This document shows positions 3,662 through 14,518 of a stretch of 51,734 nt of DNA, piece after piece. The stretch is from Runella sp. CRIBMP (GTDB lineage: Bacteria > Bacteroidota > Bacteroidia > Cytophagales > Spirosomataceae), in assembly GCF_009905605.1 (NCBI RefSeq), contig NZ_JAAAKZ010000028.1:1-51734 (forward strand), given 5' to 3'. Position 1 is the stretch's first letter. Each line of letters begins with the position of its first letter. Under the pieces are notes generated by a model that ran no database searches, had not been told where the DNA came from, and saw nothing but the letters and a program-made list of their open reading frames with translations. A program made the position numbers and the translations under genes.

Positions 3662-4131
3662 TTAGAAATTGAGTTGAATGATTCCTTTTCTCGGATTGCC
3701 TTTTAGGCGTGTATCTTTCTCGAATTGGTGTAGCCAGTCTAAGTAATCCATTTTGAACAGTTCATAATGAGCGTGGTTCTCTGGGTATGTAGCCACAAAG
3801 TAGGCGTCTATTTTGCCTTTCTTTTGAAACTTTCGTTTTTGGAGTGGTGATAGTTCTACGGCAAATTTGTTGAGCCGGGTACTATCCAAAAATGTTACTA
3901 AATCTATGTCACTTGGATTTCTTCGTTGAGTGGTGAAACTACCATCAATCCATTGGTAAAAACCACTGCCTACAATTTGTTGTAATTCGTTCAAAAATTG
4001 ACGATACTCTTCAAATAAGGCTATGCGAGTGCGTGAGTTATTGAACGCTGATACGAATACCTCCTCAAAGGTATCAAGGTCTGTTCAATGATTTCGTAGG
4101 GTGTAAGGTGTCCTAATTGGTCAAATTTCAT
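3662..4131 (-). pseudogene. Nucleotidyltransferase-like protein (DUF6932 type), frameshifted
   Basis: The intact C-terminal frame (from about 3994) contains GSFTTQRRNPSDIDLVTFL, the Gly-Ser plus Asp-x-Asp signature of polymerase-beta-like nucleotidyltransferases, in the form seen in DUF6932 proteins. The natural start is upstream: ATG at 4131 overlaps the integrase stop (TGATG) and reads MKFDQLGHLTPYEIIEQTL. There the frame breaks; one extra base near 4075 joins it to DTFEEVFVSAFNNSRTRIA and on into the main frame, giving about 156 residues. A shorter downstream product from an internal start would lose only the N-terminal helices and might still fold. The deletion may be an assembly error. 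Role unknown; related folds act as toxin or defence nucleotidyltransferases. Confidence 0.6.
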
Positions 4132-5474
4132 CAGTTAGCGATTTTAAATACAGTGCGGTTTTCCTGCGTAAAGAATGGGTGTTCGGCCATTCGGTAGGCG
4201 ACTTCTTCATTTGATATTTTGATGTATTTCATAAATGAGGTTTCGGTACGGTGCCCAGTGAGTCGCATAATGTCAAGGGTGGGCACTCCCTGTAAGTAGG
4301 CGTTAGTGGCAAATGACCGCCGGGCCGTGTGGGTTGTAACCAGTTCCCACTTATGCAGCGTCTTGGTTACTTTCAGCCCTCCTTTGGTTTGGCTCATTGT
4401 TACTTTTTCGTTCAGGTCGGCCAGTTGCGCTATTTCCTTCAAATAATCATTCATCCGCTGATTGGTCAGAACACGGGGCGGTATTCCTTTGTATTTGGCT
4501 AGTATGGCCCGTATTTGCGGGGTTAATGGTACGAACACGGGTTTATCTGTCTTTTGCATGGTGATACGCACAAATTGCCCGTCATTGATGATGTTTTCGG
4601 GCCGTAAAAGGTTAAGGTCAGAAAAACGTAAACCTGTGTAACAGCCGATAACGAACACGTCCCGAACGCGGTCAAGGCCGGCACGGTCGGAAAGGTCAAG
4701 ATTGTAAATGCGTTGGATTTCGTCGAGCGTGAGGTAAATGTTTTCCACTTCCTCCAATGGTTTTATAAAATCTTCATCCTGAAAGGCTGTATTGGTGTGC
4801 ATCCCGTCTTTCATGGACTGACGCATAAAGACTTTGATATTTTTGATAATATCGCCCGTGGTGTTGGTAGCCTTGCCTTTTTTGTTGAGGTAGGAAATAA
4901 ACTTTTTGTGAAAGTGGAGGTCAATTTTATCAAACTCAACTTTGAACTTGGTTTCTTTCTCGAATGCCTTTAGGTGGTTGAGTGCCTTACGGTAGTTTTT
5001 GGCCGAACTTTCAGAGTAACGTTTGCCGGAGCGTGGAATGGTTCTTTCTCCGTTGGCGCATTCTTCAATAAATTTCTCTATCCACGGGATGAATGAAAGT
5101 TTTTCGGGCTGTTTGACCACTTTACGCGGTTTGTCACGGTTAAACACCTTGTCGAGTTCAGCGCGGTAAAATGCCTGTGTCGGTTCAATGTTTTCGGCCT
5201 TTACCCGTGAATTGATACGCTCCACTTCCCCGGCCATGCGGTTGAGGTGTGTTTCAATCTCTTTCAGGTCGTTTTTAATGTCCCGGCTAAAACTTTTGGT
5301 GGAGGTAGTTGGGCGTTGGGTCTTTGAATCCCAGTGTTCAGGTGAAAGAAATTGACCCGTTGAGTAAACCAAACGGGGGGTACAACTGCGACAAATAAGG
5401 AGAACGAGCGTTGAGTCCTTAGAAACGGCCTCTTTGAGCACAAAACGCGCTGAATTTGTAATAACTTTTCCCAT
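4131..5474 (-). CDS. Tyrosine recombinase/integrase
   Basis: This 447-residue site-specific recombinase should integrate and excise the element. Its layout is that of Bacteroidota integrases: an arm-binding N-terminal domain (about 1-115), a SAM-like core-binding domain (about 125-235) and a catalytic domain (about 245-430). The catalytic residues are visible: Arg283 in CYTGLRFSDL, Lys308 in TMQKTDKP, His382-x-x-Arg385 in THTARRSF, His408 in LTGHRTETS and Tyr417 in FMKYI. The protein is read away from the tRNA-derived junction at 5651-5673. The promoter region carries two direct repeats that may be arm-type or regulator sites. Its stop overlaps the start of the nucleotidyltransferase-like gene. 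Confidence 0.95.
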   Translation of the reverse strand: MGKVITNSARFVLKEAVSKDSTLVLLICRSCTPRLVYSTGQFLSPEHWDSKTQRPTTSTKSFSRDIKNDLKEIETHLNRMAGEVERINSRVKAENIEPTQAFYRAELDKVFNRDKPRKVVKQPEKLSFIPWIEKFIEECANGERTIPRSGKRYSESSAKNYRKALNHLKAFEKETKFKVEFDKIDLHFHKKFISYLNKKGKATNTTGDIIKNIKVFMRQSMKDGMHTNTAFQDEDFIKPLEEVENIYLTLDEIQRIYNLDLSDRAGLDRVRDVFVIGCYTGLRFSDLNLLRPENIINDGQFVRITMQKTDKPVFVPLTPQIRAILAKYKGIPPRVLTNQRMNDYLKEIAQLADLNEKVTMSQTKGGLKVTKTLHKWELVTTHTARRSFATNAYLQGVPTLDIMRLTGHRTETSFMKYIKISNEEVAYRMAEHPFFTQENRTVFKIAN

Positions 5475-5741: not shown

Positions 5742-6337
5742 TTTAATTTCGTACCACCACGCACTACGGTAAACCCAAAAATGTTTCAGTAATGACGGTC
5801 ACTCCTGAACTCAATAACCGCCCAAAAAAAGATTGAAACGATTACGTAAACGGAAGCGGTATGCCGCTGCGGACATATTCGACAATGCGTTGAGCATCAA
5901 TGTACGGGGGTGATCATGAACTCTGATTTGCCTCGTTGCAGACCTCCTGTTTGTTTGATTTTAAGAGATAATTCTAACCAAATGGTGAAAGATAATGCCG
6001 ATAGTTGTTGAAGAATCAGTGCATGGTAGATACCGCGTGGCGGCCTGTGCCGTATGTCCTAGGCTGGTAATGTTAAGTTGAGAAGCAAATTCGGGTAAGT
6101 CTCTTAAAAGTTTAATCGCTGCTTTAATGTCTCTAACTTGCCGATCGATAGAATGTGCCATCTGAGTGCCGATGCAACCCAATTTGCTTGCTTGAGTTAC
6201 TCTGGTGTCGTTGGAATAATCTTACAAAACAAATCTAAAGGACGAAGCGAAAATATCGACCTCTCTTTCTAAAAGCAAGTCTGAATATATTGACCATTAA
6301 GCTTTCTATCCTTGTTTTGCAGTATTGCTATGAACAT
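5742..6337. other. Long stretch without an intact gene
   Basis: Between the tRNA terminator and the next terminator hairpin no convincing intact ORF is seen on either strand. A minus-strand fragment (5961-6182) resembles part of a hydrolase. Further along the same strand, at about 5847-5907, a short open stretch reads as IDAQRIVEYVRSGIPLPFT. The stretch looks like decayed coding DNA next to an integration hotspot. Confidence 0.5.
5961..6182 (-). pseudogene. Possible remnant of an alpha/beta-hydrolase gene
   Basis: This 73-residue frame has no ATG (only TTG). It contains SIDRQVRDIKAAIKLLRD followed by SLGHTAQAATRYL. The first part resembles the helix before the nucleophile elbow in acetyl-esterase-like enzymes (QvrDvkaAirwLR), and GHTAQ could be a decayed G-x-S-x-G. 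No catalytic Asp/His region follows and frames around it are broken. It may also be a chance ORF. Confidence 0.3.
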
Positions 6338-6398
6338 AAAAAGACCTCCTTGTTTTTGAGTTTGTAGTGACTCTCAAAACCTCAAGGAGGTATTTTTT
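6338..6398. terminator. Long bidirectional terminator hairpin
   Basis: AAAAAGACCTCCTTG pairs with CAAGGAGGTATTTTTT, and an inner arm TTTTGAG pairs with CTCAAAA. It lies 35 bp beyond the stop of the minus-strand isomerase gene and has A and T runs on both sides. Confidence 0.75.
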
Positions 6399-8233: not shown

Positions 8234-8272
8234 ACAGATAGTGGAACGACGATTGTCGAATTTTCTTGAAAT

Positions 8273-8319
8273 AAAACAGCCGCGTTCTGAAAATATACCT
8301 TCAAAACGCGGCTGTTTTT
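8273..8319. terminator. Bidirectional terminator between convergent genes
   Basis: AAAACAGCCGCGTT (8273-8286) pairs with AACGCGGCTGTTTT, followed by T residues; A and T runs flank both sides. It serves the head-GIN gene on plus and the LytTR gene on minus. Confidence 0.85.
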
Positions 8320-8337
8320 GGTATTAAGACGGTTATC

Positions 8338-9099
8338 TCAGCGGTCAATCCAGCGTTTAAAAACGGGGGCTTTTTCCCGGCTGATTTCTACTTCTGATAC
8401 GTGGCTGCTTCGCAATTTGACGTATAACTTCCCTGAGGCGTCACCTTTGTAACTTTCAACGGCATTTTGATTGATAATTTGCCGGCGTCCCGCCCTGAAA
8501 AACTCGTTGGGGTTGAGGATGTCTTCGATTTCATCCAGTGTGTTTTGTTCGGCAATGTATTTTTGACCGTCATTGGTTACCACAAAGATTACTTGGTCAA
8601 GATAAAACAGCGACACGTCGGCTAAGTTGATGGGGATGGATGCATTGCGGTGCTGAACAATCAGCTTTTCCTTGTACATCCGTCCGATTTGGGAAGGGTG
8701 ATTGGCCAGTGTTTGCAGCACTTCGGTCGAAATACTTTGGTTTTTTTGCAAGGCCTTAAATTTACCAAGGGCCCGAATGAGATCCTCTTCGTCGATGGGT
8801 TTTAAGAGATAATCAATCCCGTTTACCTTAAACGCCTTGATGGCGTATTCGTCGTAAGCAGTGGCAAAAATAATCGGACATTTGATGTCGAAATAGTTAA
8901 ATAAATCGAAGCTGATGCCATCGGAGAGCTGAATATCCATGAAAAGTAAATCAGGCTCGGCATTTTGCATAAACCACCGTCTGGCGTTTTTTACGCTGTG
9001 CAACACGTCGAGCACCTCGGCCTGAGGCGCAATATCTTTCAACATTCGTTGGAGCTGTTCGGCAATGAGGGCTTCGTCTTCTACGATGAGTACTTTCAT
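8338..9099 (-). CDS. LytTR-family response regulator
   Basis: The 253-residue protein has a receiver domain (about 1-120) with acidic pocket Glu7-Asp8, phospho-acceptor Asp55 in LLFMDIQLSDG, the ATAYDEYA switch region and the conserved Lys in YLLKPID. A LytTR DNA-binding domain follows (about 145-250; DVSLFYLDQ, FFRAGRRQIIN). It should be phosphorylated by LytS-type kinases and act as a transcription factor. It is the last gene of a minus-strand block, 14 bp behind the short kinase gene, so that kinase is the natural partner. Targets are unknown. Confidence 0.93.
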   Translation of the reverse strand: MKVLIVEDEALIAEQLQRMLKDIAPQAEVLDVLHSVKNARRWFMQNAEPDLLFMDIQLSDGISFDLFNYFDIKCPIIFATAYDEYAIKAFKVNGIDYLLKPIDEEDLIRALGKFKALQKNQSISTEVLQTLANHPSQIGRMYKEKLIVQHRNASIPINLADVSLFYLDQVIFVVTNDGQKYIAEQNTLDEIEDILNPNEFFRAGRRQIINQNAVESYKGDASGKLYVKLRSSHVSEVEISREKAPVFKRWIDR

Positions 9100-9113
9100 G
9101 GTGTTTGGTCAGG

Positions 9114-9752
9114 TTAAAGTAATGGCAATACGATGCGAAAAAATTCGGGTGTTTGTTGAATCTCAAGCGTCGTTTCTGAAAAATAAGCGTATAAATTCCG
9201 CAAACTGCTTAAGCCTTGCCGATTTTGAACTTCCAGAGTACGTTTGATTTGGAGGTTGTTTTCAATGATAAGTCGCTGGTTTTCAGTTTTTATTGTAACC
9301 AATAACGGCGAGTCGGGGTCGGTTAGGTTGTGTCGGGTGGCGTTTTCAATCAGAATCTGCAATGTGGTCGGGACTATCTGATACGAATAATAGGCTTCGG
9401 GCACAGTAAGGCATACTTCTAACCCTTTCCCAAAGCGGGTTTGGAGCAAATCCGCGTAATCTTTAATAAAACACAACTCTTCACCCAGCGTCACCAGTTT
9501 GGTGTGTCGGGTGGTTAGAACGTAGCGGTAGACGCGCGTCAATTGACTTAAAAATTTAACCGCCAGCCGTTGGTCGCTGTAAATCAGGCTTTCAAGGGTG
9601 GCTAGGCTGTTAAACAAAAAGTGTGGGTTGAGCTGACTGACTAAATTTTGGTACTTAACTTCCGAATGGTCACTATCGTACGCGGTTTTTTCGCCCGCTT
9701 CTTGGGCGGGTACTTTGGGTGGTGTAGATTCTATTTTAGGCGTTGGTTTCAT
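9114..9752 (-). CDS. Short cytosolic LytS-type histidine kinase
   Basis: The 212-residue kinase has no membrane segment or recognisable sensor domain. A disordered, Pro-rich N-terminus (about 1-33) leads into LVSQLNPHFLFNSLATLES with the phospho-acceptor His44, then the His_kinase and HATPase-like part with IENATRHN as N-box. The glycine loops of the ATP lid are weak, as in many LytS-like kinases. The gene starts three bases after the globin stop, so the two are translated together. With no sensor of its own, the kinase may take its signal from a partner, and the globin is the obvious candidate. Confidence 0.9.
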   Translation of the reverse strand: MKPTPKIESTPPKVPAQEAGEKTAYDSDHSEVKYQNLVSQLNPHFLFNSLATLESLIYSDQRLAVKFLSQLTRVYRYVLTTRHTKLVTLGEELCFIKDYADLLQTRFGKGLEVCLTVPEAYYSYQIVPTTLQILIENATRHNLTDPDSPLLVTIKTENQRLIIENNLQIKRTLEVQNRQGLSSLRNLYAYFSETTLEIQQTPEFFRIVLPLL

Positions 9753-9755
9753 TCA

Positions 9756-10172
9756 TCAGGCCGTTTGTTGTTGAGCGGCTTCAATCATTGCGGCCGACAT
9801 CACGCTGTATACATCAATCCACGCTTGTTGTATTTCGGGAGTAAAATCACTTTTCAGTACCTTTTCCAAGGTCCATAATAACGCCTCCCCAATGTATTGA
9901 TAATGTTGTTCTTTAGCGCCATACTTCACGTGTTTTTGCCCCAAATCTTGCAGTAGCGGCAGCAGCTCATCCATATTATCCAAAGAGCATACCGTAAAAC
10001 TAATCACCTGAAACAGCTTGATACCCTGAGTTTTAAGTTCGCTTTTGAAAAGATGCTTTACCTCGGGCACTAGCTCAAAAAATCGTGTATAAAAAACTTG
10101 AGCGGCATACTCCGATTTTGGAACAATACGGGCAAAACTGCTTTGTACCAGCTTTTTTTGTTGATCATTCAT
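9756..10172 (-). CDS. Single-domain globin (flavohaemoglobin-like)
   Basis: The 138-residue protein is a full-length globin fold of the flavohaemoglobin/single-domain type: AAQVFYTRFFELVPEVKHLF (B-C helices, with a Tyr at the B10-like position 28), LGQKHVKYGAKEQHY with proximal His81 followed by KYG, and a C-terminal helix QQAWIDVYSVMSAAMI. It should bind haem and O2 or NO. The FAD/NAD reductase part of flavohaemoglobin is absent, so detoxification would need another reductase. Its tight coupling to a sensorless kinase and a LytTR regulator suggests a gas-sensing role. It lies 120 bp behind the propeller kinase gene. Confidence 0.88.
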   Translation of the reverse strand: MNDQQKKLVQSSFARIVPKSEYAAQVFYTRFFELVPEVKHLFKSELKTQGIKLFQVISFTVCSLDNMDELLPLLQDLGQKHVKYGAKEQHYQYIGEALLWTLEKVLKSDFTPEIQQAWIDVYSVMSAAMIEAAQQQTA

Positions 10173-10292
10173 GGGTTATGTGTGGGTTAGTTGTATAAAA
10201 TTAGATGGTTTAAACAGCATAACTAAAAAAAACAGTCTAAGACGTCGGTTTCGCTTGCTAATCCTGCAAAAGCCAAAACCGAGGCGTTAATG

Positions 10293-13200
10293 TTAATCTA
10301 GTAATGGAACATAGACGGTAAAACGGTCGACGGTTTCTTTAACCTGCATGGGTCGGTTGGTTAGGTAACTGTACAACGCCCGAAAATCGCCCAATCCTTT
10401 TTTGTTGGAAGTGGTTACGGTTCCGCGTTTTTGTAGGTTATTTTCAAAAATAAGATAATTGTCTTCTTCCCTAATTTTTACCCAAAGCGGTGATTCTAAA
10501 CTGGTTGTGTTGTGTTTGATGGCGTTTTCAATTAAATTTTGAAAGGTAACGGGAACCACTTTTTTGTGCGCCAAATCGTCGGGGATGTCAATTTCTACGC
10601 TCAGCCCCGTGCCGTATCGCATGTGGAGCAGGCTTACAAAGTCACGGGCAAAGCGCAATTCTTGTTCTAGCATGACCACTTCGTTGTCGTCGTTTTCAAT
10701 CAAATACCGATACACTTTTGTCAATTGACGGAGGTATTTGGAGGCTAGTTTGTGGTCTTTGTAGATGAGACTGTCCAAAACTGCCAAGCTATTAAACAAA
10801 AAGTGGGGATTGAGTTGGTTGATAAGTCCTTGATAACGAGCTAGTACTTTCTCACGCTCAAGCATAATGGCTTTGCGCTCGGTTTCAACTTGTTGCTTTT
10901 GGACAATTTCAAACTTTTGGCGGAAATCCAGTTTTTCGGTCAACTCCTGATTTAGTTGATTCTGAAGCAGTTGTTGTTCTTCCAACAATTTTAACTGCGT
11001 GGCGTGTTCGCGTTGGATGATTTTTACGCGGGACCGATAAATATAAACACCGACTGCTACAACCAGCATTACCATTAAGGTTTGAAACCACCACGTTTGC
11101 CAAAACGGAGGATTGATTACGATGCGGAGGGTATACGGGGCGGGGTTCCAGACACCGTCGTTGTTGGCGGCTTTTACGTGCAAAGTATACTCCCCAGGCG
11201 GTACGTTAAGGTAGCTGATGTTTGCTTGGGTAGTGGGGGCTCGCCAACCATTGTCATTTTTGACGCCTTCGAGCCAGAATGAAAACTGATTGTTTTCCGA
11301 ATGGTCATAGCTCAGGGCGGCGGCTTCGATGGTAAGGTCGTTTTCATCGTATGCCAACGTAATCGGAAGGTTGTTTTGGGGAATGTGCGTAGGAAGCACT
11401 TCCTGACCGTGCACCCTTAATGATGTTATAACCACAGGCGGTACAAACGTGTTGGTTTTTACGCGGTCGGGATGAAACCGAACCAGTCCGTAGAGTCCCC
11501 CAAAATACAAATTACCCAATTTGTCTTTGGCCACCGATTTAGTCTCAATAGAAAGCACCTCAAGGTTGTCGGCTCGGCCAAAGGATACAAATCGTTTTTG
11601 TTGTTCGTCGTACCGCGTTAAGCCATTGGCGGTTCCCATCCACAGCGTGTTTCGGACCCGTATCAGCGCCGAAACGTAGTTGTTCGCAATGCCATGACGG
11701 GTAAAATAATTAGTAAACGATTGAGTTTTGGGGTCAAGGCAGGCCAGTCCGTTGTCGGTTCCCATCCATATATAGCCCTTTGAGTCTTCCGAAAAAGACA
11801 TCACGCCGTTGTCTGGCAGGCTTTTGGGGTTATCTTCTTGGTACCGATACGTGGTTACTTTTGATAAATCGGGACTGATGCACAGCACCTCGTCAACCCC
11901 ACAGCCTACCCACAGGTTTTGTTTACTGTCGGTGTAAAGGCTGTTGTAGCGATTCAGGGGCAAACGTCGAATGCGCTCATCGTTAAAGCGATTGGCAAAG
12001 GTCTTGGTCTTGGGGTCAAATATATTTAGTCCCTCATCGGTACCGATAAACACCCTCCCATCTGACGTGGGGTGTAAATCGAACACAAGCCTGCCCGCTA
12101 CAAAATGACGCCCAGGAACGATGGGTGGCGGAGAGGGCATTGCTTCATTGGGCAGATGGTCATATATCGTAAATTTGCCCGTGGTAGGGTCCAAATGCTG
12201 AAAGTGTTGGGTAGCTACGTAGACCTTATCTTCGGGGTCAACGTAGATAGAATTGACGCCGTTGTCTGAAAGGCTATTTTTGTTTTTTGGATCGTGGCGG
12301 TAGGCTTTGTAGGTATTGGTGGTTTGGTTGACCCACACCACGCCGTTGTCGGTTCCCAACCAAAGATTGTCCTTGCTGTCGATTGCAATCCGGTTAATGG
12401 CTCCGCCGTTGGCCGTGGTAGGTTGATAATTTGCTTCTTTTAAAGGAGAAGTAAATGACTGACTAGCAGGGTTAAACCGACTGATGCCTTTATAAGCGGT
12501 ACTAAACCAAAGCACGCCCGAACGGTCCTGAAATGCGGTTCGTACATAGTTGGAACTCAGACTATTGGGTACATTAATTTGACTCTGATAATTAATGAAC
12601 TTTCGTTGGTTTTCGTGATAACAAAAAATCCCTTGCCCTTGAGTACATATCCAGAGTTTTCCATCTTTGGAAAAAAACACCGAGCTAATTTCTCGGGGCT
12701 CGGCCAATGGAATGTCCATTTTTATGAAATGTTCGGTCGCAAGGCTCAACATTGACAATGTACCATTGCGCGTGCCCACAATGATATTTCCCGTTTTTGG
12801 GTGCTTTGCCAAAGCCGTCACGGAGTTGTCGGGAATGGTGCCCAATTCGTCGCTTTTACAAAATACCTGAAAAGAATTCTCTTTAATATTATAGCGATAC
12901 AGCCCCAAGTCGGTGCCAATCCAAACTGTGGGGCCATCAATCAGCAGCGAGCGTACAGAGTAGACGAGTGGCTTCGAAGAGGGGTCGGTAGGAAGTTTAA
13001 CCAATTCTGATTGTTTGGTTTTTGGGTCAAAAAGAATCAGCCCGTTGGCGCTACCTAGCCAGAGTTTGCCACGGAAGTCTTCGCCGATGCAGCGAATATA
13101 ATCGGAACGCTCACCGTATTTGGTAAAATGAAAGCGCTCAAATTGTTGCGTTTTGAAGTCCATTCGGTTAAACCCGTGCTGCGTTCCTACCCACAGGGTT

Positions 13201-13493
13201 CCATTTTTGGATAACAAAACGGAACGAACAATAATATCCGAAAGCGAATGGGGATTTTGGCGGTCGTGGTCAAAGACTTTGCACCGGATACCGTCATAAC
13301 GTGCCAGCCCAGCCAACGTGCCAATCCATATAAAACCCGACGTATCTTGGGCGATTCCAGTGCAATAATGAATAGGAAGCCCCTGCTCAGGACTAAGGTG
13401 CTGAAAAGAGATTTCGGAAGATTGTCCAAACACCAGAATCTGGGCCCAACAGCTCAAAAGTAGACTAAAAAAAAGGGATGAGCCTGTCCGCAT
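10293..13493 (-). CDS. Two-component beta-propeller sensor histidine kinase (LytS-type)
   Basis: The 1066-residue membrane kinase has a signal peptide (about 1-24, ending ILVFGQ), then a long periplasmic sensor built of two-component-regulator propeller repeats (about 30-690; repeated GLARYDG, LWVGTQHGF, WLGSANGL, IWMGTDNGL), a Y_Y_Y domain (about 720-800), one transmembrane helix (WWFQTLMVMLVVAVGVYIY), a coiled coil and a LytS-type kinase core with LINQLNPHFLFNSLAVLDS. Unlike the hybrid kinases that control polysaccharide utilisation, it has no receiver or AraC domain. It should therefore act through a separate regulator, most simply the LytTR gene downstream. Confidence 0.93.
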   Translation of the reverse strand: MRTGSSLFFSLLLSCWAQILVFGQSSEISFQHLSPEQGLPIHYCTGIAQDTSGFIWIGTLAGLARYDGIRCKVFDHDRQNPHSLSDIIVRSVLLSKNGTLWVGTQHGFNRMDFKTQQFERFHFTKYGERSDYIRCIGEDFRGKLWLGSANGLILFDPKTKQSELVKLPTDPSSKPLVYSVRSLLIDGPTVWIGTDLGLYRYNIKENSFQVFCKSDELGTIPDNSVTALAKHPKTGNIIVGTRNGTLSMLSLATEHFIKMDIPLAEPREISSVFFSKDGKLWICTQGQGIFCYHENQRKFINYQSQINVPNSLSSNYVRTAFQDRSGVLWFSTAYKGISRFNPASQSFTSPLKEANYQPTTANGGAINRIAIDSKDNLWLGTDNGVVWVNQTTNTYKAYRHDPKNKNSLSDNGVNSIYVDPEDKVYVATQHFQHLDPTTGKFTIYDHLPNEAMPSPPPIVPGRHFVAGRLVFDLHPTSDGRVFIGTDEGLNIFDPKTKTFANRFNDERIRRLPLNRYNSLYTDSKQNLWVGCGVDEVLCISPDLSKVTTYRYQEDNPKSLPDNGVMSFSEDSKGYIWMGTDNGLACLDPKTQSFTNYFTRHGIANNYVSALIRVRNTLWMGTANGLTRYDEQQKRFVSFGRADNLEVLSIETKSVAKDKLGNLYFGGLYGLVRFHPDRVKTNTFVPPVVITSLRVHGQEVLPTHIPQNNLPITLAYDENDLTIEAAALSYDHSENNQFSFWLEGVKNDNGWRAPTTQANISYLNVPPGEYTLHVKAANNDGVWNPAPYTLRIVINPPFWQTWWFQTLMVMLVVAVGVYIYRSRVKIIQREHATQLKLLEEQQLLQNQLNQELTEKLDFRQKFEIVQKQQVETERKAIMLEREKVLARYQGLINQLNPHFLFNSLAVLDSLIYKDHKLASKYLRQLTKVYRYLIENDDNEVVMLEQELRFARDFVSLLHMRYGTGLSVEIDIPDDLAHKKVVPVTFQNLIENAIKHNTTSLESPLWVKIREEDNYLIFENNLQKRGTVTTSNKKGLGDFRALYSYLTNRPMQVKETVDRFTVYVPLLD

Positions 13494-13822
13494 TTGTTGT
13501 GGCTGAAAAAGTTAAGTAAGACGTAAAAGTGCAAAAAAAATAGCCTTCTTTTACTTTGGTAAACGGATTTGACAAGCTGAACCGATAAAATTGGAATTGG
13601 ATGAAAGTAAAAAGAAGGGGTTGAAGCGAAAAATAAAACTCGCCAAAGCGTTGGTTTTGGGGGTTGAAACGGGGTAAAATAAGAACTGAGCCGTACGATA
13701 AAGGCGTTGAATCGTGGGAGTTTTGCCGTTGAATAAATTGCATTTTGAGTATAAAAATTAGTTTTTAGTTTTGTTGAGAATAGCGCTGATAAACAGCGCA
13801 TTGTTTGTTAACTCATACACAG
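13494..13822. other. Divergent intergenic region
   Basis: This region lies between the propeller kinase (minus) and the DUF3592 gene (plus). ORFs here on minus are low-complexity Phe/Ser-rich frames that look non-coding. A perfect inverted repeat GCGCTG-ATAAA-CAGCGC lies at 13783-13799, 24 bp before the DUF3592 start. No clear promoter consensus was found. Confidence 0.5.
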
Positions 13823-14518
13823 ATGAAGAATAATTTTTTCGGTATTTTCTTTGCCATATTTGCAGCCGTCGGGACGCTCTTCTGTGCCATTGGCTTTTTT
13901 TCTTGGAGCGCCGATCAGACAATCAAACGGAACGGAATCAAAACCACGGGGACGGTCGTCTCCTTCAGCAGTTCGTCAAAAGGAGGAAGGGCGCCTGTTA
14001 TCTCGTTCATGACGCAATCGGGCGAGAGTCGGACGTACTATTCGTCAACGTACTCAAGCCCCCCGTCTTACGATGAGGGGGAAAATGTAACCTTGTGGTA
14101 TTTGCCCAATGACCCCGACGAAGTCGTGCTTTCGGGCCTTGACTCGTGGCTTTTACCGGGTATTTTTGGCGGAATGGGGCTTGTTTTTGGGGCAATAGGG
14201 TATGGTGGATTTATCTGGCGCTGGCGCCGCAAACGCCTAAATGATTGGTTGCGCCTACATGGTCAAATTATCATGGCCGACGTGGTGGATGTTAGGTACA
14301 ATACATCCCTTTCGGTAGGCGGAAAACATCCTTGGATGATTATTGCTCAATATTTTGAACCACAGTCCCAAAAGGTGTATAGCTACGAAAGTGATAATAT
14401 TTGGTTCAATCCTGCGCCTTTTATGTCGCCCGGGCAAAAAGTGACGGTGCGTGTTTCTCCCAAAGATTATGGCGTGTACGAGGTAGACACTTCTTTTTTG
14501 CCAAAACAGGGAAATTGA
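13823..14518 (+). CDS. DUF3592 membrane protein
   Basis: From ATG 13823 the protein has 231 residues. It starts MKNNFFGIFFAIFAAVGTLF (membrane helix 1), followed by a periplasmic or outside loop with NGIKTTGTVVSFSSSSKGG and VTLWYLPNDPDEVVL, the usual DUF3592 signature. A second helix (LLPGIFGGMGLVFGAIGYGGF) and an RWRRKR stop-transfer come next, then a second, related beta-rich unit (ADVVDVRYNTSLSVGG; VSPKDYGVYEVD). A TTG codon at 13805 would add six residues, but the ATG is more likely. Function of the family is unknown. Confidence 0.75.
   Translation: MKNNFFGIFFAIFAAVGTLFCAIGFFSWSADQTIKRNGIKTTGTVVSFSSSSKGGRAPVISFMTQSGESRTYYSSTYSSPPSYDEGENVTLWYLPNDPDEVVLSGLDSWLLPGIFGGMGLVFGAIGYGGFIWRWRRKRLNDWLRLHGQIIMADVVDVRYNTSLSVGGKHPWMIIAQYFEPQSQKVYSYESDNIWFNPAPFMSPGQKVTVRVSPKDYGVYEVDTSFLPKQGN

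Follow-up and report, generated by a model that had tools for sequence, protein, structure and literature searches.

The DNA analyzed here (hereafter the window) is a stretch of 51,734 nucleotides from Runella sp. CRIBMP, and its minus strand carries four co-directional genes in the order propeller sensor kinase, globin, small kinase and LytTR response regulator. On balance, the sequence comparisons lean toward an autoregulated propeller/LytTR locus in which the globin would be a companion controlled by the regulator, with a role in gas handling and possibly in feedback. This view is built on the gene order, the all-or-none presence of the genes within Runella, purifying selection, an enrichment of globins beside related systems and repeats with the spacing of LytTR sites, all of which were observed directly. 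The features are listed below; coordinates refer to the window.

8273-8318, minus strand: terminator-like hairpin 3' of the regulator gene, found by folding
8338-9099, minus strand: LytTR response regulator, 253 aa, Response_reg and LytTR domains
9114-9752, minus strand: sensorless kinase core, 212 aa, with PF06580 as its sole Pfam match
9756-10172, minus strand: single-domain globin, 138 aa, PF00042 (E 2e-17)
10173-10292, minus strand: intergenic spacer separating the propeller kinase from the globin; contains a T-run and, at about 10196-10203, an invariant TA..TT box
10293-13493, minus strand: propeller sensor kinase, 1066 aa, with Reg_prop, Y_Y_Y and a His_kinase (PF06580) core
13508-13535, minus strand: candidate Bacteroidota-type promoter, TTTG-N17-TAACTTT, directly before the propeller kinase
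13578-13715, minus strand: direct-repeat array upstream of the propeller kinase, a putative LytTR operator

In the favored reading, for which we infer the biochemistry, the regulator binding and the transcription of the genes as an operon, the propeller kinase would sense a periplasmic or envelope signal and phosphorylate the LytTR regulator, which would bind the direct repeats spaced 21-22 bp before the operon and raise its expression, including that of the globin. The globin would be a cytoplasmic O2/NO-binding protein serving in O2 capture or, supplied with electrons by an unlinked reductase, in NO dioxygenation; it may additionally report its ligand state back to the circuit. The small kinase would be a Runella-specific stripped core, probably derived from a propeller kinase and translationally coupled to the globin. 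Its most likely target is the same regulator, on which it would act as a second kinase, a phosphatase or a phosphotransfer partner, and it would be the most plausible point for feedback from the globin.

Layout and conservation of the locus

A first-pass annotation had placed the locus at 8338-10172 and described it as a single-domain globin with an intact proximal histidine, followed after 3 bp by a kinase without sensor or membrane domain and then by a LytTR regulator. These parts were all recovered. The histidine is His81; the globin ends in a tandem TGA TGA, leaving a 3 bp gap before the ATG of the small kinase; and Pfam finds no sensor domain in the 212 aa kinase, in which no membrane segment was seen by eye. 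The picture of a locus without a sensor did not survive, since the annotation had missed the co-directional propeller kinase, which lies 120 bp upstream of the globin at the head of the putative operon. In that protein the Reg_prop repeats and Y_Y_Y domain, both absent from the 212 aa kinase, precede the kinase core, and a signal peptide and one membrane span were read by eye in addition to the propeller repeats. By Pfam, the parts of a LytTR two-component system, a PF06580 kinase and a receiver-LytTR regulator, are both present.

The region 8240-8340 folds at -37.4 kcal/mol (z -7.3), with none of 200 shuffles equally stable, and the hairpin is likely a transcription terminator. The promoter candidate at 13508-13535 was matched to the Bacteroidota promoter consensus. 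The TA..TT box and T-run between propeller kinase and globin may form an internal promoter, so that the globin, small kinase and regulator would perhaps also be transcribed separately; the globin could then be uncoupled from the operator in Runella, which would speak against the favored reading. Divergent from the operon lies a DUF3592 gene (13805-14518, plus strand), which might be controlled too, since the repeat array stands between it and the operon. A few kb downstream of the locus is an ORF (4131-5474, minus strand) that by eye resembles a tyrosine recombinase/integrase.

The globin-kinase-LytTR order, which the earlier work had proposed to look for across Cytophagales, was found in Runella only, in 11 of 13 genomes. 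All 11 loci run from propeller kinase through globin and small kinase to regulator; the gaps are 110-136 bp ahead of the globin, 0-5 bp (0, 3 or 5) ahead of the small kinase and 14-92 bp ahead of the regulator. Globin, small kinase and propeller kinase (at E 1e-60) are all missing from the two Runella genomes without the locus (G124 and G129), where the top regulator matches reach just 46% and 39% identity. In Runella, the presence of the globin, of both kinases and of the orthologous regulator is all-or-none, beyond chance. Values of dN/dS of at most 0.17 wherever dS was unsaturated (8 pairs tried) show all four genes to be under purifying selection, and the regulator is the best conserved of the four proteins. 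In genome G111 the propeller kinase is split into ORFs of 157 and 890 aa (L038:3736-6933), by an assembly error or by inactivation.

Direct repeats and globins beside related systems

The array upstream of the propeller kinase consists of repeats at 13715 (ACGATTCA), 13694 (ACGGCTCA), 13672 (CCGTTTCA), 13651 (ACGCTTTG) and 13629 (TCGCTTCA), which are 21-22 bp apart, and an outlying repeat at 13585 (TCGGTTCA), 44 bp beyond the one at 13629. Three to five ACGRYTCA-like repeats at 20-22 bp spacing stand on the coding strand in 10 of the 11 Runella loci, and in each of these 10 none of 500 base shuffles was equally good; in the remaining locus, the split L038, the tested stretch is not the true upstream region. 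No good array was found in the spacer between propeller kinase and globin (score 1-4 versus 9-13 upstream). According to a published report, LytTR repeats are 9 bp long, mostly with 12 bp between them, and are tied to positive autoregulation, and the spacing found here agrees with that description (PMC6193735).

In other genera, 12 of 21 divergent globin/regulator regions contain, on the strand of the globin, an ACGRYTSA pair spaced exactly 21 bp (cut-off, 14 or more of 16 matches), a somewhat favorable figure because the consensus was picked after both the Runella and the divergent regions had been seen. The corresponding numbers were 0.16 (at most 3) for shuffles, 0-1 for other periods on the same strand and 3 for the opposite strand; the other 9 regions hold no pair at this cut-off. 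The sharp preference for 21 bp is a stronger point than the count itself. With LytTR-type repeats ahead of it, the globin is likely an output of the regulator. Among the non-divergent linked systems only L247 reaches the cut-off, with 16 of 16 matches before its propeller kinase; L125 and L234 score 13, and L043, L044, L103, L250 and L269 are likewise under 14. Two of 23 globins without an adjoining regulator reach 14 at 21 bp, namely L270, where the regulator lies 4 kb from the globin, and L050, a second globin of G026. The L045 globin region also has 14 matches, but at 22 bp. Random 350-bp segments from the fetched loci reached the pair score in 34 of 4000 cases. The L050 globin (5890-6354, minus strand) is preceded by the pair ACGGTTCA/CCGGTTCA and is possibly an unlinked target of the regulator.

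Two sites in the 7.1-Mb genome from which the window is taken match the exact pair pattern: the present locus and the region ahead of a stand-alone LytTR gene. The 13 Runella genomes contain 13 matches to the pattern, compared with 3 for a control read backward, one of which is in this same genome. The stand-alone gene (L286:1578-2009; L288:1021-1452 in the present genome) encodes a LytTR DNA-binding protein, and the pattern, a repeat pair spaced 21 bp, precedes it in seven Runella genomes. Since the exact-pattern search for a genus-wide regulon gave this one further conserved site, beside a LytTR gene, no further target is named. The stand-alone protein shares the motif, so the repeats could be read by another LytTR protein.

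Outside the Runella locus, the genomes of the family contain 31 globin-regulator pairs within 5 kb, compared with 0.13 expected if the two were independent. These pairs, 27 of which are divergent, take in 26 of 72 related regulators (all non-genus matches at E 1e-60, with up to 13 candidates scored per genome) and 31 of 66 single-domain globins (in-locus Runella rows and frames of at least 400 aa left out, and one extra copy in the Runella genome G111 included). In the other-genus loci that were read, the partners of the globin are a propeller kinase and a LytTR regulator, and the small kinase is absent. That many relatives keep a globin beside such a system suggests that the globin is part of the circuit. 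Chance neighborhood or hitch-hiking, with the globin functionally unlinked, would agree with the 46 related regulators that have no listed globin nearby. It would also agree with the loci of the closest-matching globins in other families of the order, where a propeller-kinase/regulator pair was found beside none of 20: 19 have neither a regulator nor a kinase match, and the twentieth has a 442 aa regulator-like match only. We regard it as very improbable nonetheless, because of the excess of pairs, the shared 21-bp repeats and the all-or-none presence in Runella.

A wider scan of 80 named kinase loci found a globin within the fetched locus in two, L103 (Saprospiraceae) and L125 (Chitinophagales). 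Both are among the six loci with a kinase of at least 700 aa, which makes two of six propeller loci, one of the six spanning only 3.8 kb; neither of two additional propeller loci, belonging to other families of the class, had a globin. The link between globin and system is patchy beyond the family. The neighbors of the nearest other-family globins, in the four loci looked at, include hemA and a Tll0287-like gene (L214 and L217), an FAD/NAD/2Fe-2S reductase (L216 and L217), a multiheme cytochrome (L216) and an outer-membrane export protein (L215); a reductase adjoining the globin fits an enzymatic role there.

In the regulator tree, all 27 linked rows and all 11 Runella rows fall into one propeller-regulator group (support 97). 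The globin tree joins the globins of Runella to 12 stand-alone ones from other families (98), outside a separate main group of system-linked family globins (100). Regulators that form one group and globins that split suggest that the system stayed in place and that globins were recruited or exchanged. Topology tests in which nested unlinked globins were kept in did not reject a clade joining the Runella globins to any one of three groups: the main linked group (p 0.34), L041/L043/L044 (p 0.17) and an eight-row family clade (p 0.26). An apparent rejection of a single origin (p 4.9e-6, 1.2e-5 and 0.02) was set aside as unfair, because nested unlinked globins had been forced out of the linked groups. 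The groups were named after the first tree, and both tests left out 9 rows (five of a second globin type, three heme-less and one long branch). One origin is not rejected, and repeated recruitment of globins is a hint from these trees, a lead and not a result.

The small sensorless kinase

The structure model of the small kinase has disordered residues 1-27 followed by a DHp/CA-like core, and the structure comparison confirmed no more than a kinase core, with GanS ranked first. A scan of 222 family genomes (up to 13 candidates scored per genome) found it in 11 at E 1e-55, all of them Runella. Its presence in other genera was considered and rejected, since none of 209 genomes had a match at that threshold; the other-genus matches at E 1e-40, among those listed, sit in frames of at least 338 aa. 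Three database homologues of similar length (P0041-P0043; 208-218 aa, 48-56% identity) are protein-level matches only. The best 120 of 803 kinase homologues listed have no Pfam globin domain, hence no fusion there.

A tree built from 87 kinase cores unites the 11 small kinases (support 100) within the propeller-kinase group (96), where they adjoin the propeller kinases of Runella, G018 and G046 (88), a placement still supported at 88 after 10 long or duplicate rows were dropped. The alternative topology, in which the small kinases branch outside the propeller kinases, was not rejected (AU p 0.51), so that an origin by duplication of a propeller kinase is likely, although unproven.

The first-pass annotation had suggested that the globin is a detachable gas-sensing input of the small kinase. 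On this view globin, small kinase and regulator would make up a cytoplasmic gas relay, which would work beside the propeller kinase on the same regulator. Part of the case for this idea has stood: the small kinase has no sensor of its own, it is coupled to the globin at 0-5 bp in 11 of 11 loci, all 11 of its carriers among the 222 genomes have the globin, and all 11 in-locus Runella globins keep the proximal histidine as heme ligand. Separate heme sensor/kinase pairs also exist, as in H-NOX/HqsK, where a separate heme protein is described as acting on a kinase in trans (PMC6759604). The other part has not stood, in that globins elsewhere in the family are linked to propeller/LytTR systems without any small kinase, the repeats point to the globin as an output, and a full sensor kinase is present in the same locus. 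The ATP-lid glycine has moreover been lost from six of the 11 small kinases (L035-L040), which would be odd for the main kinase of a relay. We consider such a relay unlikely; it keeps some plausibility because only Runella adds a sensorless kinase, tightly coupled to the globin.

The same glycine loss speaks for a DHp-centered role of the small kinase, as a phosphatase or in phosphotransfer, at least in those six species. The small kinase could accordingly be a DHp module, whether a phosphatase, a Spo0B-type phosphotransferase or a heterodimer partner of the propeller kinase, with the globin as a co-expressed output only. Spo0B-type phosphotransferases have a kinase-like DHp domain and a CA domain unable to use ATP. 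Consistent with such a module, mean pairwise identity among the 11 small kinases is 93% around the phospho-acceptor histidine and 64% in the CA part, and the glycine missing from the six is present in all 11 Runella propeller kinases. The glycine is retained, however, in the window's copy and in L031-L034; the phospho-acceptor histidine and the Asn box (His44 and Asn137 in the window's copy) are kept in all 11 small kinases; and the CA part is more variable than the DHp part in the propeller kinases too (75% versus 95% identity). A role of this kind is possible, if rather unlikely.

The globin and its place among known systems

For the globin, the alignment gives His81, Phe42, Tyr28, Gln49 and Leu53, which we take to be positions F8, CD1, B10, E7 and E11, respectively. 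The protein is a single-domain, flavohemoglobin-like globin with a proximal histidine and a Tyr/Gln distal pocket. PF00042 is its only Pfam match at E 0.001 or better, and no match to the sensor-globin family PF11563 was found. The C-terminal FAD/NAD reductase domain of flavohemoglobins, which are NO dioxygenases, is absent, the protein stopping after the globin and scoring 75.9 bits against NF009805 (cut-off 432). Its nearest solved structures by sequence are 3wfw, 3s1i and 3ubc, presumably Hell's Gate-type single-domain globins of Methylacidiphilum. Hell's Gate-type globins share a TyrB10/GlnE7 pocket, but the Runella globin is embedded in a two-component locus, and a Roadblock domain is absent.

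A histidine is missing from the proximal column in 4 of 35 system-linked globins, compared with none of 38 unlinked ones; the residue is Gln in the second copy of L047, Gly in L234 (where a shift in alignment register is possible), Phe in L246 and Leu in L250. The globin of L269, directly downstream of a propeller kinase, likewise lacks this histidine, although a register shift is possible there as well. These losses are a misfit with a purely gas-handling output and hint at gas-independent signaling by linked globins. They raise the alternative that the globin is a protein-interaction partner in its own right rather than a gas enzyme, with heme dispensable in some lineages, and the stressosome protein RsbR, whose globins occur in non-heme and heme forms, provides a precedent (PMC4976288). 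The number of cases is small, L246, in which Pfam recognizes no globin at E 0.001, may be decaying, and all 11 Runella globins keep the ligand, so that we hold this alternative to be distinctly doubtful.

The histidine-less globins beside propeller kinases are at L234:5078-5548, L246:5965-6501, L250:8902-9324 and L269:5478-5972. A second globin type of 279-299 aa, whose distal pocket differs from that of the small globins, occurs near propeller/LytTR systems (L060:9737-10576, L063:7834-8685, L064:5173-6012 and L241:7488-8387). The second half of the one member scanned against Pfam (L063) has no family match, and these proteins are possibly globin sensors with an unknown output domain. Globin-domain proteins of 1521-1527 aa were also seen (L065:4765-9348 and L066:4572-9137); in the one scanned (L065), the globin is joined by a NO-synthase oxygenase domain, a flavodoxin and a reductase, and the gene is preceded by a PAS hybrid kinase and by a LytTR regulator.

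With parts from known families, the system would be filed under LytTR two-component systems and not under globin-coupled sensors. It resembles the LytS/LytTR systems of Bacteroidota in its kinase with Reg_prop, Y_Y_Y and PF06580 and its separate receiver-LytTR regulator, and differs from them in carrying, between its sensor kinase and its regulator, a globin and a second, sensorless kinase. In globin-coupled sensors, for example HemAT and AfGcHK, a globin is likewise brought together with a signaling output. The locus is no variant of these sensors: its polypeptides are separate and unfused, and its globin has a flavohemoglobin-like pocket and matches PF00042 and not PF11563. Diatomic-gas control through a LytTR regulator is found in CoxC. 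This MHYT-LytTR regulator responding to CO (PMC11347149) has an MHYT sensor and no globin. The H-NOX/HqsK systems are alike in that a separate heme protein is associated with a kinase and could act in trans (PMC6759604), but the heme protein here is a globin (3/3) and not an H-NOX, the regulator is of the LytTR type and the globin-kinase contact is putative. RsbR is alike in having members with and without heme in signaling, and differs in being a globin-STAS fusion in another pathway (PMC4976288).

No published report of globins with propeller/LytTR systems was found in the open-licence literature. A more far-reaching reading would have globins recruited repeatedly as circuit partners, placed under the 21-bp operator and feeding back on the kinase, with a heme-less protein signal in other lineages. 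In Runella this would amount to a two-input system, the envelope signal arriving through the propeller and gas through the globin, with the small kinase as a cytoplasmic docking point. As a joint claim, the two-input system included, we think it unlikely to hold in full.

To our knowledge, no partner is known for most single-domain globins of bacteria. The recurrence of a globin next to a single kind of two-component system, together with a shared repeat in front of it, offers a concrete regulator and target. If the globin feeds back on the kinase, the locus would be a gas-sensing kinase system made from separate globin and kinase proteins, and its heme-less relatives would then allow gas binding and protein signaling to be told apart.
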